This document shows, piece after piece, positions 25,517 to 29,713 of a DNA stretch of 64,000 bases. Made by a program: the position numbers and the translations under genes. The stretch's first letter is position 1. Each line of letters opens with the position of its first letter. The stretch lies in the NCBI RefSeq assembly GCF_007475365.1, contig NZ_CP034442.1:248001-312000 (forward strand), read 5' to 3'. The stretch comes from Streptococcus oralis subsp. dentisani (GTDB lineage: Bacteria > Bacillota > Bacilli > Lactobacillales > Streptococcaceae). The notes beneath the pieces were generated by a model, which had not been told where the DNA came from, made no database searches, and saw only the letters and a list, made by a program, of their open reading frames with translations.

Positions 25517-25857
25517 TTAGAGATTTTTCTTTGGATGACGGTCGATAATGTCCTGGTACTGTTCCAGTATCTGCTCTCCCTTTGGAGTCAATTTGTAACC
25601 ACGAATTGAAAAGTAACTTGCTAATTCTTCTTCTGAAAAGTTGTCACGAAGGGATTGGTCCAAATCTGGAGCCCTCATCTTAGACAGTCCTGTCATTCCC
25701 TTGCTTTTCAGAATATTCTTTTTTGTGGTGGCATTTAGATGGTTAAGTGAATCAAAAGCTGTCTTAATGACAGCATAACCTTTTTCCACAGAGTTTTTAG
25801 ATGCTTTGGGGTATCAATATCATAAGTGTACTCAAAGTATTTAGGAAACCAGGTCTC
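25517..25857 (-). pseudogene. C-terminal part of a split SAP-like domain gene
   Basis: Read on the minus strand, codons from 25857 encode ETWFPKYFEYTYDIDTPKH and, after a one-base shift in an A-rich run near 25790, continue as KKGYAVIKTAFDSLNHLNA to RHPKKNL, ending at 25517. The second part looks like a SAP-like fold (ILKSKGMTGLSKM, then FSEEELASYF, then YKLTPKGEQIL). No ATG, GTG or TTG opens the first frame. The missing N-terminal half lies at 29529-29713 on the same strand. A GTG-started 90-residue frame exists inside it, but it is better explained as a fragment. Confidence 0.75.
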
Positions 25858-25865
25858 GAAAAGAA

Positions 25866-26090
25866 TTATGCTTCCTCTTTCTGTCTGAGTTCAAAGAGGT
25901 CTTCTACTTTCAGATTAAAAACTTGAGCAATTTTAAGAGCCATTTCCAGCGAAGGATTGTAACGGTTATTTTCCAAGTGCAGAATTGTCTCGCGTCGCAT
26001 GCCGATGAGGTCGGCTAACTCCTTCTGGGTCATGCCTGTGGACTCACGAACAGATTTGAGATTAGTAATAATCTTGCTTTCTTTGGTCAT
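25866..26090 (-). CDS. XRE-family transcriptional regulator
   Basis: A 74-residue protein that is almost wholly one helix-turn-helix domain: TNLKSVRESTGMTQKELADLIGMRRETILHLENNRYNPSLEMALKIAQVF. It is a short Cro/CI-like regulator of the type found beside membrane proteins. ATG 26090 starts two bases after the stop of the upstream membrane-protein gene, and its ribosome site GGAGAGGAT overlaps that gene's end, so the two are co-transcribed. A longer frame starting at 26138 would overlap the neighbour by 46 bases. It probably represses its own operon through direct repeats near 26705-26740. Confidence 0.85.
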   Translation of the reverse strand: MTKESKIITNLKSVRESTGMTQKELADLIGMRRETILHLENNRYNPSLEMALKIAQVFNLKVEDLFELRQKEEA

Positions 26091-26092
26091 GC

Positions 26093-26689
26093 TTATCCTC
26101 TCCGTTCTAAGATAAGATAGACAACCGCAAATATGCAAATCAAGGCAGCTATGCTAATAAAGATTTGGCCCATGTAAAGAGTGAGAGACCCCATATACCC
26201 AATGATAACTGCTAGGATCATCAGTGCGCCTAGTATAAAAACAAACATCAAGCTAGCTGCCTTGGCTAAATTAGCATAAAAGCGTTCGTCCGGAGTTTCC
26301 TTGACATTTTTCAAACAGACAAAACCAAATACAATCACTTCAATAACGAGGCCAATTCCCAAAATCCATTCTTTAATACCAGGACTTTCGCTTGGGGTCG
26401 CAACCCAAATCCCTACTGTATAAAAAATGCTTGCTGCAAACAAAAGTATCGTGTAAAGCTTAGCAGACAAGTCAAAAATAATCTTTCCCTTACCTTTCTG
26501 ACTCTTATGAGGCCATGGTTTCATATGTAGCCAGCCCCAAATAGCTACAATCTGCCCTAACACTGAAATACCAGCAATAACTAACTTGGGTCCCCAACTA
26601 AGATTAGAACCAAATAAAACAGTAAAATCAATAAAGAGAGCTGCGGAAATCATTGTAATGAGGCCACCCGTTTTTTGACTTTTTTTCAT
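26093..26689 (-). CDS. multi-pass membrane protein paired with XRE regulator
   Basis: A 198-residue integral membrane protein with about six hydrophobic segments (about residues 8-28, 33-54, 75-96, 106-126, 140-165, 172-193). No catalytic motif is visible. Genes of this kind commonly pair with a short XRE regulator in Firmicutes, often in toxin/immunity or stress-response cassettes, but its function is unknown. AAAGGAG precedes the ATG on the minus strand. It is the first gene of the two-gene operon within the inserted island. Confidence 0.75.
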   Translation of the reverse strand: MKKSQKTGGLITMISAALFIDFTVLFGSNLSWGPKLVIAGISVLGQIVAIWGWLHMKPWPHKSQKGKGKIIFDLSAKLYTILLFAASIFYTVGIWVATPSESPGIKEWILGIGLVIEVIVFGFVCLKNVKETPDERFYANLAKAASLMFVFILGALMILAVIIGYMGSLTLYMGQIFISIAALICIFAVVYLILERRG

Positions 26690-26704
26690 GATAGACTCCT
26701 TTCC

Positions 26705-26740
26705 TTATGTTAGAAATATTTAACAATCTTTATGTTATAA
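26705..26740 (-). promoter_or_regulatory. direct repeats upstream of the XRE operon
   Basis: TTATGTTAGAA (26705-26715) and TTATGTTATAA (26730-26740) are 11-bp direct repeats with one mismatch, 25 bases apart, just before the membrane-protein start at 26689. The second also lies next to an AT-rich TATA tract. They are candidate binding sites for the XRE regulator. Confidence 0.5.
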
Positions 26741-27152
26741 ATATATCACACTTCAATTTGGAAAGCAAGAATTTATGTGTCAATGAGACAATTATTTGAA
26801 AAAATTTTTTAATAAAAGCCTTCGCTAGTCAAACAACTAAAGAATTCTTTGAAGCAATGCATCGGATTTGGTTTGAATAGTTTCGTTAATAATATTTGAT
26901 GATAAAGAATTTTTGGAAAATCTAGATACTGTATGAATCCCTACTTTTTTCTTAGACTATTATAAAGTCTGTCAGAATAAGCTTTGTAGGTGTAGAAGTT
27001 AATTTTTACAGAAGTGAAGTAAGCATTCAATACGAATCAATACATAAGAAAAACTCTGATTTCAAGCGTTTTTTCTTTTTTCAATTTTAATACATTTCAC
27101 TATATTTCAGTCCAATCTCTACCTTCTTATCTATACTTTGATGGAGCTGAAG
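26741..27152. other. gene-free AT-rich stretch in the island
   Basis: I see no gene here. A 19-codon reading at 26821-26880 (opening FASQTTKEFF, ending RIWFE) might be the tail of a lost gene, and TACGAATC at 27031-27038 is one base off a cin box but has no downstream gene close by. Confidence 0.4.
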
Positions 27153-27181
27153 TTGACATCTACAAAGTTTAATGTTAAAAT
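27153..27181 (+). promoter_or_regulatory. cadDX promoter
   Basis: TTGACA, a 17-base spacer and TAAAAT preceded by TGT make a near-consensus extended promoter. Confidence 0.85.
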
Positions 27182-27182
27182 T

Positions 27183-27204
27183 CATTCAAAAATATATTTG
27201 AATG
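27183..27204 (+). promoter_or_regulatory. candidate CadX operator
   Basis: CATTCAAA and TTTGAATG form a perfect 8-bp inverted repeat around a six-base AT centre. It begins one base after the -10 and overlaps the ribosome-site region of cadD. TTCAA-type palindromes are the known operators of CadC/CadX-like ArsR repressors. Confidence 0.75.
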
Positions 27205-27213
27205 GGGTGTTTT

Positions 27214-27828
27214 ATGATTCAAAATGTTGTTACTTCAATAATCCTGTATTCTGGGACAGCCGTAGACTTACTTATTATCCTAATGTTATTTTTTGCCAAA
27301 AGAAAAAGCAGAAAAGACATCATTAACATCTATTTAGGACAATTTCTAGGCTCTGTTAGTCTAATATTGCTAAGTTTACTTTTTGCATTTGTCTTAAATT
27401 ATATTCCTAGTAAAGAGATTTTAGGTTTGCTCGGTTTGATTCCAATTTTCCTAGGGCTCAAAGTTTTGCTTTTAGGAGATTCTGATGGAGAAGCTATTGC
27501 AAAAGATGGTTTGCGCAAAGATAATAAAAACCTGATTTTTCTAGTCGCTATGATTACTTTTGCAAGTTGTGGTGCTGACAATATTGGTGTTTTTGTCCCA
27601 TATTTTATTACCTTAAATTTAGCGAATTTGATAGTGGCTTTACTTACCTTTCTAGTCATGATTTATCTCTTGGTTTTTTCTGCCCAAAAATTGGCACAAG
27701 TCCCTTCTGTTGGAGAAACTTTGGAAAAATATAGCAGATGGTTTATTGCCGTTGTTTATTTAGGATTGGGGATGTATATTCTGATTGAAAACAACAGCTT
27801 TGACATGCTAAGGACTGTGTTCGGCTAG
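27214..27828 (+). CDS. cadD: cadmium resistance transporter CadD
   Basis: A 204-residue CadD-family membrane protein (LysE superfamily) that exports Cd2+ and perhaps Zn2+. About five hydrophobic segments are seen. The family's opening (VVTSIILYSGTAVDLLIILMLFF), the central IPIFLGLKVLLLG and the conserved FASCGADNIGVFVPYF, whose Cys and Asp probably bind metal, are present. ATG 27214 follows GGGGTG at 27204-27209; an upstream in-frame GTG or TTG would lie in the operator. cadX follows after 11 bases. CadDX occurs on staphylococcal plasmids and streptococcal islands, so horizontal gain is likely. Confidence 0.93.
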   Translation: MIQNVVTSIILYSGTAVDLLIILMLFFAKRKSRKDIINIYLGQFLGSVSLILLSLLFAFVLNYIPSKEILGLLGLIPIFLGLKVLLLGDSDGEAIAKDGLRKDNKNLIFLVAMITFASCGADNIGVFVPYFITLNLANLIVALLTFLVMIYLLVFSAQKLAQVPSVGETLEKYSRWFIAVVYLGLGMYILIENNSFDMLRTVFG

Positions 27829-27839
27829 GAGAAAAAATT

Positions 27840-28178
27840 ATGAAAAAAGATAGTATCTGCCAAGTGAATATTATAAATCAACAAAATGTTACAACCGCAA
27901 CGAACTACCTTGAAAAGGAAAAAGTCCAAAAATCACTTCGCATTTTATCAAAATTTACCGATAATAAACAGATAAATATCATCTTTTATCTCCTTGCCGT
28001 CGAAGAACTCTGTGTCTGCGATATAGCCTGTTTACTAAATCTCAGTATGGCATCTGCCTCCCACCATCTTCGTAAACTAGCCAATCAAAACATCTTGGAC
28101 TCTAGAAGAGAGGGGAAAATTATATATTATTTTATAAAAGATGAGGAAATCAGAGATTTTTTTAATCAACTAGGATAA
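27840..28178 (+). CDS. cadX: ArsR-family cadmium-responsive regulator CadX
   Basis: A 112-residue ArsR/SmtB winged-helix repressor. The metal-sensing motif LCVCDIACLL near residue 58 precedes the DNA-recognition helix region (SMASASHHLRKLANQNILDSRREGK). An N-terminal Cys7 could add a ligand, as in CadC. It is predicted to release the cadDX promoter on binding Cd2+. AGGAGAAAA precedes the ATG, and it is the second gene of cadDX. The 22-base palindrome at 27183-27204 is its likely operator. Confidence 0.92.
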   Translation: MKKDSICQVNIINQQNVTTATNYLEKEKVQKSLRILSKFTDNKQINIIFYLLAVEELCVCDIACLLNLSMASASHHLRKLANQNILDSRREGKIIYYFIKDEEIRDFFNQLG

Positions 28179-28574
28179 CAACTATTTTTACTACTTTTCC
28201 ATGATTATAGGGGATTATATATGAAATTTTTTGATGAAAATTTCCCATAAGAAATACCTACTCGTATCAAATGTTTAAGAAAAAAGTATAATTTAAAGCA
28301 AATCGACCTAGGTAATGCAGCTCAAGTTAGCCAAGTTGAAAAGGGAGGAATTTGAAAGAAAATGTATCTTTGATAGTAGTCATTTATTGTGAAATATGAT
28401 ATATTTATTAATTAGATGGATGAATATTTCTAAAGTTAAATAAAATATGACAGATACATGTTTTTTAGTGTATCTTGTTTGTACTCAAAGTATGAAATGA
28501 ATATCTAATATTTAAGATTAATAAATATTATACGATGAGATAGAATGCTACAAAATGAAAGGTGATGTAATCTG
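28179..28574. other. gene-free stretch with decayed regulator
   Basis: The only recognisable content is the XRE remnant at 28221-28355. The rest is AT-rich with scattered stops on both strands. Confidence 0.5.
28221..28355 (+). pseudogene. N-terminal remnant of an XRE regulator
   Basis: From ATG 28221 the frame reads MKFFDENFP, then an in-frame TAA, then EIPTRIKCLRKKYNLKQIDLGNAAQVSQVEKGG before a TGA. The second part matches the first half of a Cro/CI helix-turn-helix (RIKxLRKKYNLxQxDLG). The rest of the domain is gone, so this is a dead fragment, perhaps left by rearrangement of the island. Confidence 0.65.
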
Positions 28575-29156
28575 ATGAAGAAAGATAGATTAATTGCATT
28601 GACAGATGCGGTTCTAGCAATTATAATGACTATCCTAATCTTAGAATTAGAAAAACCAACGACACCAAGTCTTCAAGCTTTTTGGGATTTACGGCAAAAT
28701 TTCTTTGCTTATTTTCTTTCCTTTTTCTGGTTAGGATCGTTATGGATGGCACTAAACACACTATGGGAAAAGGTTGAGAAAATTTCCCCACAAATTGTTT
28801 GGTGGAATTTGTTTCTTTTATTTTTTGTTTCATTTATGCCCTATGCTACTGGAATCGTTAGTAGTCATTTCATGAACCATACGGCACAGCTCTTTTATGG
28901 ACTGATCGTTATTGTTTCAACGGTAGCAAACTGGTTTTTACATAAAGTAATTGATAAACCCAATATAGATCAGAAAGAATTACTTGAAGCTACCGCACAA
29001 TATAGAAAGTTATTGATACCTGACCTAATAATTAAAGGAGTGGGATTGATTCTATCCTTAATTCTCTATCCTCCGATTATGATGTATAGTGTTTTAATTG
29101 CGGCATTTTACATCATAACTTTAAAAACACTATCTGAAAAAAGAGTGAATAACTAA
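28575..29156 (+). CDS. TMEM175/DUF1211-family membrane protein
   Basis: A 193-residue membrane protein with about five hydrophobic segments. It opens with KKDRLIALTDAVLAIIMTILILEL, the DUF1211/TMEM175 signature, with LTDA in place of the usual FSDA. A conserved NLFLLFFVSFMPYATGI region follows. Bacterial TMEM175 proteins are tetrameric K+ channels, so potassium conduction is the best guess, not proven here. AAAGGTGAT precedes the ATG. It is the last gene of the island before a long gene-free tract. Confidence 0.85.
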   Translation: MKKDRLIALTDAVLAIIMTILILELEKPTTPSLQAFWDLRQNFFAYFLSFFWLGSLWMALNTLWEKVEKISPQIVWWNLFLLFFVSFMPYATGIVSSHFMNHTAQLFYGLIVIVSTVANWFLHKVIDKPNIDQKELLEATAQYRKLLIPDLIIKGVGLILSLILYPPIMMYSVLIAAFYIITLKTLSEKRVNN

Positions 29157-29528
29157 AAAACGGTGACCAAAGTTAGGTGTATTATTTTAATGATTACAGA
29201 CCTAAACTATTCCCCTATTTAGAATCTATTAATTCATATTTTATAAATTAATTAGTAGATATCGTTCTTAAAATCCTTGATATTTCGCTGTTTTTAGTCC
29301 AACTGAAACGCATACTTTCCAAACCAGATTTTAAGAAAGCTCGTAAAGCTAGGTAGTTTTCTAAACGTTAAAAACTAGCTACAATACAGCATTTACAACA
29401 CTTCATGGTTCACACCATTTAATTGAAAGTTATTTAAATTAGATGAAAATTTGTTTTCTGAAAAAGTGGGAAAACATTGATTTTAAGCGAATTTTGAATC
29501 ATATTCGAATGGGAGTTTTTAAAATCAT
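29157..29528. other. gene-free right part of the island
   Basis: I see nothing that codes or folds convincingly here. The tract is AT-rich, with stops in all frames. Confidence 0.5.
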
Positions 29529-29713
29529 GTTTCGGTTGTAAAAGTGCCAAAGTTGATTCTCCATAGGAGAATGATATCTCCTGCTAGTAAATCATCTGCT
29601 AATAGGTCCATGTGTCATTTAGGAACGGGCTTGAGATTTAGTAGCCAAGCTTCGACATCACGATTAAGAGAGATATAGGGCTTGACAGGGTAGTTATCAA
29701 AAGTAGTATTCAT
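29529..29713 (-). pseudogene. N-terminal part of a split SAP-like domain gene
   Basis: On the minus strand ATG 29713 opens MNTTFDNYPVKPYISLNRD and continues WLLNLKPVPK, an in-frame TGA, then HMDLLADDLLAGDIILLW and RINFGTFTTET. The TGA probably replaces an Arg codon. The reading ends in ET, exactly where the C-terminal fragment at 25857 begins (ETWFPKYF). The two fragments therefore derive from one gene of about 165 codons interrupted by the island. The stop and the frameshift in the other half show it is dead. Confidence 0.75.

Follow-up and report, generated by a model that had tools for sequence, protein, structure and literature searches.

A split gene between slrA and rpsP as a probable secondary attachment site for rpsI-type integrative elements in Streptococcus oralis subsp. 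dentisani and its relatives

Introduction

A gene between slrA and rpsP in Streptococcus oralis subsp. dentisani is split by 3,671 bp of inserted DNA, and with a probability of roughly 0.87 it is a secondary attachment site for tyrosine integrases of the rpsI type. Its present form would have arisen by an ancestral crossover that left a short remnant (element B), accretion of further elements including element A, and deletion of the left repeat. The stretch of 64,000 nucleotides that was analysed is called the window, and all positions refer to it unless stated otherwise. A sequence-only reading had described one gene split by an accessory block, which stood, with a possible target duplication at its edges, which did not; it had missed the copy of the rpsI 3' end at 29324-29371. 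This repeat identifies the insertion system and divides the insert into two tandem elements.

Integrative elements (ICEs and IMEs) targeting rpsI, their accretion, CIMEs, microCIMEs and secondary sites have already been published (PMC4701971, PMC5357655, PMC7563491, PMC5090054). In S. salivarius, CIMEs and microCIMEs lie in accretion at rpsI, rpmG, fda and rplL. CIMEs are att-bounded, stand in tandem, are without recombination or transfer genes and contain most of the cadmium genes, while microCIMEs are gene-free and 130-220 bp long (PMC7563491).

Results

One gene in two pieces

The gene lies on the minus strand. Its N-terminal half (29529..29713) codes for MNTTFDNYPV...FTTE(T) with one TGA in frame, and its C-terminal half (25517..25857) starts with ETWFPKYFEY and is frameshifted near 25790. 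It had been proposed that these same-strand pieces form one gene, decayed in both halves and without loss of a residue at the join, around an insert of 3.67 kb. The translations and uncut relatives bear this out: the TGA and the frameshift are present, the gap matches the proposed length, and in mitis-group loci with abutting halves the DNA matches of the two halves overlap by 5-6 bp. Only the estimate of about 165 residues for the intact protein has to be corrected, as the intact relative used here (L080) has 177 aa. Used as query, it yielded 470 homologues, in line with the single family expected for the joined protein, and most of the best 120 of the 470 are 170-200 aa long.

A set of 147 genomes of the genus (G numbers below) was searched as DNA with each gene half, and 58 loci (L numbers; 59 including the window) were fetched, which were picked by their matches and are not a random sample. 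The window's genome is a single contig of 1.93 Mb, and the left flank of a close relative (G019:C1) is 98% identical to that of the window. A search for the empty site in related genomes had been suggested earlier as a check, and seven mitis-group loci between slrA and rpsP (L077 and L079-L084) indeed have abutting halves. The full 177-aa-type frame is present in two of them (L080 and L084), and in the remaining five the gene is broken at other places. Ten further loci (L110-L119) have abutting halves in another chromosomal setting, with uninterrupted frames in seven. A history as two distinct genes from the outset, or membership of the pieces in unlike families, is thus scarcely credible: no supporting point was found, and the homologue lengths and the uninterrupted frames at both kinds of loci led to its rejection. 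In L078 (L078:1540-11679, G091), abutting frameshifted halves are followed by an insert of about 9.6 kb, beyond which the N-terminal half occurs once more.

No Pfam or NCBIfam family was found above cut-off for the two pieces, and none of the best 120 of the 470 homologues carries a precomputed Pfam domain. An alignment of 30 relatives led to a confident predicted model of the protein (pLDDT 92.5, pTM 0.84). It had no PDB fold match at E <= 0.001 (best 0.062), and a sequence search against the PDB gave nothing better than E 0.26; lower-ranked hits include MarR-type winged helices.

The rpsI repeat at the junctions

The left half of the gene gives way to a copy of the rpsI 3' end in 18 of the 58 loci that were fetched, each time at an identical base. 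The junction follows AAACCAG[G/A]T or a close variant and continues with AAGAAAGCTCGTAAAGC..., the attachment repeat of rpsI-type elements. The gene side of the left crossover core, AAACCAGGTCT, is found in the window at 25846..25856 (plus strand), where the rpsI-like repeat begins in the 18 relatives. One ectopic copy of the repeat is kept in the window at 29324..29371 (plus strand), as an att copy between elements A and B, and the right crossover site AAAATCATGTTTCG lies at 29521..29534 (plus strand), with AAAACCAGGTTTCG or a close form in L064, L065, L072 and L078.

Four kinds of element end stand behind the common junction, namely the XRE-side type in 14 loci, the type of L065 and L086, and those of L073 and L075. 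The element end in L075 is remnant B, and this locus holds only the repeat, remnant B and the gene halves. On the right, a single arm type was observed in all 11 of 59 loci where it was matched, so that a single entry into the uncut gene would be enough. The core common to the gene and rpsI comprises only about 8 bases, and AACCAGGT occurs three times on the window's two strands.

The repeat was looked for in 35 genomes, chosen with their state known, by means of a 26-base pattern that allowed up to 3 mismatches. Of the 25 genomes with a split gene, 24 have it at the slrA-rpsP site (the exception being G081), and so does G091 with its abutting halves and insert. At this site it was absent from all seven genomes with abutting halves and from both genomes without the gene. 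At least one copy was found somewhere in each of the 35 genomes, and the reversed-pattern control gave 0.

The window's own genome has the repeat at the end of rpsI (genome positions 1148593-1148618), adjoining a gene for a tyrosine integrase of 447 aa, and further rpsI-like repeats at 1126780 and 1118534. This rpsI locus (L144-L145, G000:C1:1110000-1149999) is an array over about 30 kb with rpsI, the integrase gene and the two additional repeats. Another 13 stretches around repeat copies were taken from 8 genomes; seven contain rpsI (L198, L204, L205 and L207-L210) and six do not (L199-L203 and L206), three of these on the contig of rpsI and three on other contigs. L200 (G103:C31), L201 (G127:C56) and L202 (G136:C12), in which rpsI was not found, may be broken assemblies of rpsI arrays or further ectopic sites.

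Elements A and B

The insert probably consists of decayed integrative elements of the rpsI type, one of them CIME-like and the other a remnant resembling a microCIME, which occupy a secondary attachment site. Element A (25859..29323) has lost its left repeat and kept its right arm at 29290..29323 (plus strand), which matches the arms before rpsI-like repeats in L200, L201, L202, L206, L217 and L218. The repeat at 29324 bounds it on the right; the left one is missing in the window, whereas 14 relatives that share its XRE end still have it. Three tblastn queries with rpsI-type integrases found nothing in the window (best E 8.0). This agrees with the earlier description of an island without a visible integrase, and an integrase remnant in the window was dropped as a candidate. 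The family-scanned ORFs of at least 40 aa in element A, coding for the XRE, membrane, CadD, CadX and TMEM175-like proteins, include no transfer genes.

Element B (29324..29525, plus strand) consists of the repeat and both arms. With 202 bp it falls into the published microCIME range of 130-220 bp, with the repeat on its left and the crossover site on its right, and no ORF of at least 40 aa is confined to 29324-29525 on either strand. Over 98 bp, its left arm shares 93% identity with the rpsI junction of G103. Its right part shares 83% identity over 103 bp with the DNA that precedes a tandem repeat in the rpsI array of the window's genome.

The G+C content is 30% in 26700-29528 vs 40% for the whole window. 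The content of cadDX, XRE and TMEM175-like genes named in the sequence-only reading held, as all of them pass curated family cut-offs. The XRE regulator gene (25866..26105, minus strand) lies above that of PF01381 and is paired with a membrane protein gene (26093..26689, minus strand) without a family above cut-off. A block of cadDX and the TMEM175-like gene follows at 27022..29180 (plus strand), which is absent from element A in L066, L067, L070, L072 and L086. In this block, cadD (27202..27828, plus strand; PF03596 and TIGR00779) codes for a member of the cadmium resistance transporter family with 300.6 bits on PF03596 (cut-off 26.2), and CadD presumably exports cadmium. The cadX-like gene of an ArsR/SmtB regulator (27840..28178, plus strand; PF01022 and NF033788) reached 71.8 on NF033788 (cut-off 55), and the TMEM175-like membrane protein gene (28575..29156, plus strand) reached 87.7 on PF06736 (cut-off 25). 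Between the latter two, 28223-28356 (plus strand) resembles a broken XRE gene by eye.

Seven copies of the XRE/membrane pair were found outside the site or as extra copies. Two adjoin rpsI-like repeats (L217 and L218), and for the other five (L214, L215, L216, L219 and L220) no repeat with up to 5 mismatches was found in the fetched stretch. Two of these five, L216 and L220 (G045 and G047), also have cadDX, which lies within about 1.5 kb of the pair.

The left edge of the window's insert

The hexamers GTCTCG (25853) and GTTTCG (29529) had been noted as a possible imperfect target duplication; their positions are correct, and these two motifs are what could speak for a transposase that duplicated a short target. 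By comparison with relatives, the left hexamer is a deletion scar. It belongs to AGGTCTCG at 25851..25858 (plus strand), where the loss of about 136 bp, including the left rpsI-like repeat, fused the gene's CCAG[G/A]TCT to CTAGGTCTCGAAAAG beside the XRE gene. Both sequences are still apart in L066, L070 and L085, where the repeat and the following DNA (136 bp in L066) separate the gene's CCAG[G/A]TC from CTAGGTCTCG on the XRE side. The gene and the XRE-side sequence are fused in the window, L062 and L072, and L063 has an identical joint. With a left hexamer that originated from a later deletion, and an rpsI-like repeat at the left edge in relatives, a transposase insertion is very improbable. 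A transposon with a direct target duplication at both edges was therefore rejected, as the junctions of the relatives contradict it.

An integrase-bearing element at the same site

G128 (L086) carries at the slrA-rpsP site genes for a 417-aa integrase (PF00589), an excisionase-like HTH_17 protein, a relaxase-like protein (PF01719, 156.5 bits) and an FtsK-like protein, the last barely over the cut-off (FtsK_SpoIIIE, 24.7 bits, cut-off 24). Repeats lie at L086:1760 and 12475. Over 417 aa, the integrase shares 94% identity with one adjoining rpsI in G079 and 91% with one in G019, and the DNA is 92.6% identical to G079 over 1,757 bp. At G128's own rpsI, a related end is retained with an integrase stretch of 98 residues. 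Integrase matches at the slrA-rpsP site were obtained in only L086 and L065 of the 59 loci, and that of L065 is truncated.

Other cargo was observed in both loci. Between the IME genes and the XRE pair of G128, L086:9691-11793 codes for a 700-aa protein with leucine-rich-type and tandem repeats and, by eye, a choline-binding-like C-terminus. L065:2766-12677 (G092) holds defence-type cargo: a pair of AAA and HNH proteins corresponding to PADLOC PDC-M62A and B, a 718-aa AAA_5 protein with a 352-aa neighbour that look McrBC-like by eye, and a split PDC-S06/AAA_13 gene.

Discussion

In the proposed course of events, whose order we infer, integrases of elements that normally enter the 3' end of rpsI would use the slrA-rpsP gene as a secondary site. 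An ancestral element would have crossed over in the short core (about AACCAGGT) common to the gene and the start of the rpsI repeat, which would leave one gene half beside an rpsI-like repeat and the other beside the element's far arm. This element would then have shrunk to the gene-free remnant B of about 200 bp, whose ectopic repeat could serve as landing site for further elements. Element A, with the XRE/membrane pair, cadDX and the TMEM175-like gene and without an integrase, would be one later arrival. In the lineage of the window, the deletion of about 136 bp would finally have taken out the left repeat, so that element A is probably no longer excised site-specifically.

Several observations speak for an rpsI-type system, in which such an integrase would have acted on the gene: 18 of 58 loci share one junction base, behind which four kinds of element end occur, both A and B have arms that match those of rpsI-type repeats at other places, the repeat tracks the split state (24/25 vs 0/7 and 0/2), and the G128 integrase is 94% identical to one adjoining rpsI. 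On the other side, the window has neither an integrase nor the left repeat, and a core of about 8 bases is not rare. Furthermore, L076 (G081) is split and carries the XRE pair without an rpsI-like repeat, six loci (L093-L098) have the XRE pair and the C-terminal part with neither a matching N-terminal half nor a repeat, and the pairs of L214, L215, L216 and L220 stand without one in the stretches that were fetched.

A single ancestral site-specific insertion, with all later variety of cargo produced by homologous recombination between strains and by deletions and with no more integrase events, would explain part of the same data. The hosts are naturally transformable, and one right-arm type in 11 of 59 loci would be expected from it. 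Recombination could also explain the mixing in a tree of the slrA and rpsP-khpA flanks, where the uncut genes of G001 and G079 cluster with split loci and the split G103 with the uncut G133; this tree covers 46 of the 59 loci with short flanks and is compatible with excision, new insertion or recombination alike. We nevertheless consider a single insertion unlikely, given the four kinds of element end behind one base and the integrase-bearing element of L086, which lies between two repeats and nearest to the left gene half. Repeated use of the site by rpsI-type integrases is preferred.

The window's insert resembles the S. salivarius arrays in its tandem elements, which adjoin att copies (A on its right side) and are without recombination or transfer genes, its cadmium cargo and its gene-free microCIME, and also in that the most decayed element, here B, is farthest from the target gene. 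It differs from them in that the elements lie inside an unrelated gene, which they split, and not at rpsI, and in that the window's left repeat is lost (PMC7563491). IMEs targeting rpsI with PF01719 relaxases and integrases with long repeats are known, with mention of secondary sites (PMC5357655). The G128 element is like them in its integrase, its PF01719 and FtsK-like genes and its rpsI repeats, whereas the slrA-rpsP gene is not named as a site in the main-text passages on these IMEs. The IME Tn7089 of S. pneumoniae BM6001 has the last 52 nt of rpsI as attB, and circular forms and the restored attB were measured (PMC10383233). It shares the rpsI 3' end as attachment repeat; unlike this mobile element at its primary site, the block in the window is decayed and at a secondary one. 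IMESag-rpsI is also inserted at the 3' end of rpsI, but with another relaxase (MobSag) and at the primary site (PMC5090054). In S. suis, the same cadDX operon is located on an 11-kb IME and hence likewise on streptococcal mobile DNA, while its carrier here is decayed; rpsI is unmentioned in the passages on that IME (PMC11430099).

A literature search on rpsI sites, secondary sites, CIME accretion and cadD/TMEM175 gave no report of the slrA-rpsP site by the titles and abstract openings listed, and no paper was obtained that combines slrA, rpsP, insertion and pneumoniae. What appears to be new is a shared ectopic att array, with a copy of the rpsI repeat in a gene unrelated to rpsI and, in many mitis-group genomes, differing elements behind it. 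More tentatively, and at somewhat less than even odds, the slrA-rpsP gene may be a second heritable attachment hub in mitis-group streptococci, whose ectopic repeat captured successive elements (cadmium, TMEM175-like, a defence-type island and an integrase-bearing IME) and where some lineages may still regain the gene through precise excision.

An island without integrase thus becomes readable as one layer in an insertion system that is already known, and other islands of this kind can be found by means of the rpsI 3'-end repeat. If the proposed reading is true, the crossover falls into the first part of the 52-nt rpsI attachment site, where the junctions confine it to about 8 bases. A comparison between rpsI and the slrA-rpsP gene makes the site choice of rpsI-type integrases testable. 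A site-specific integrase could then found a second hotspot by bringing its own landing site into another gene.
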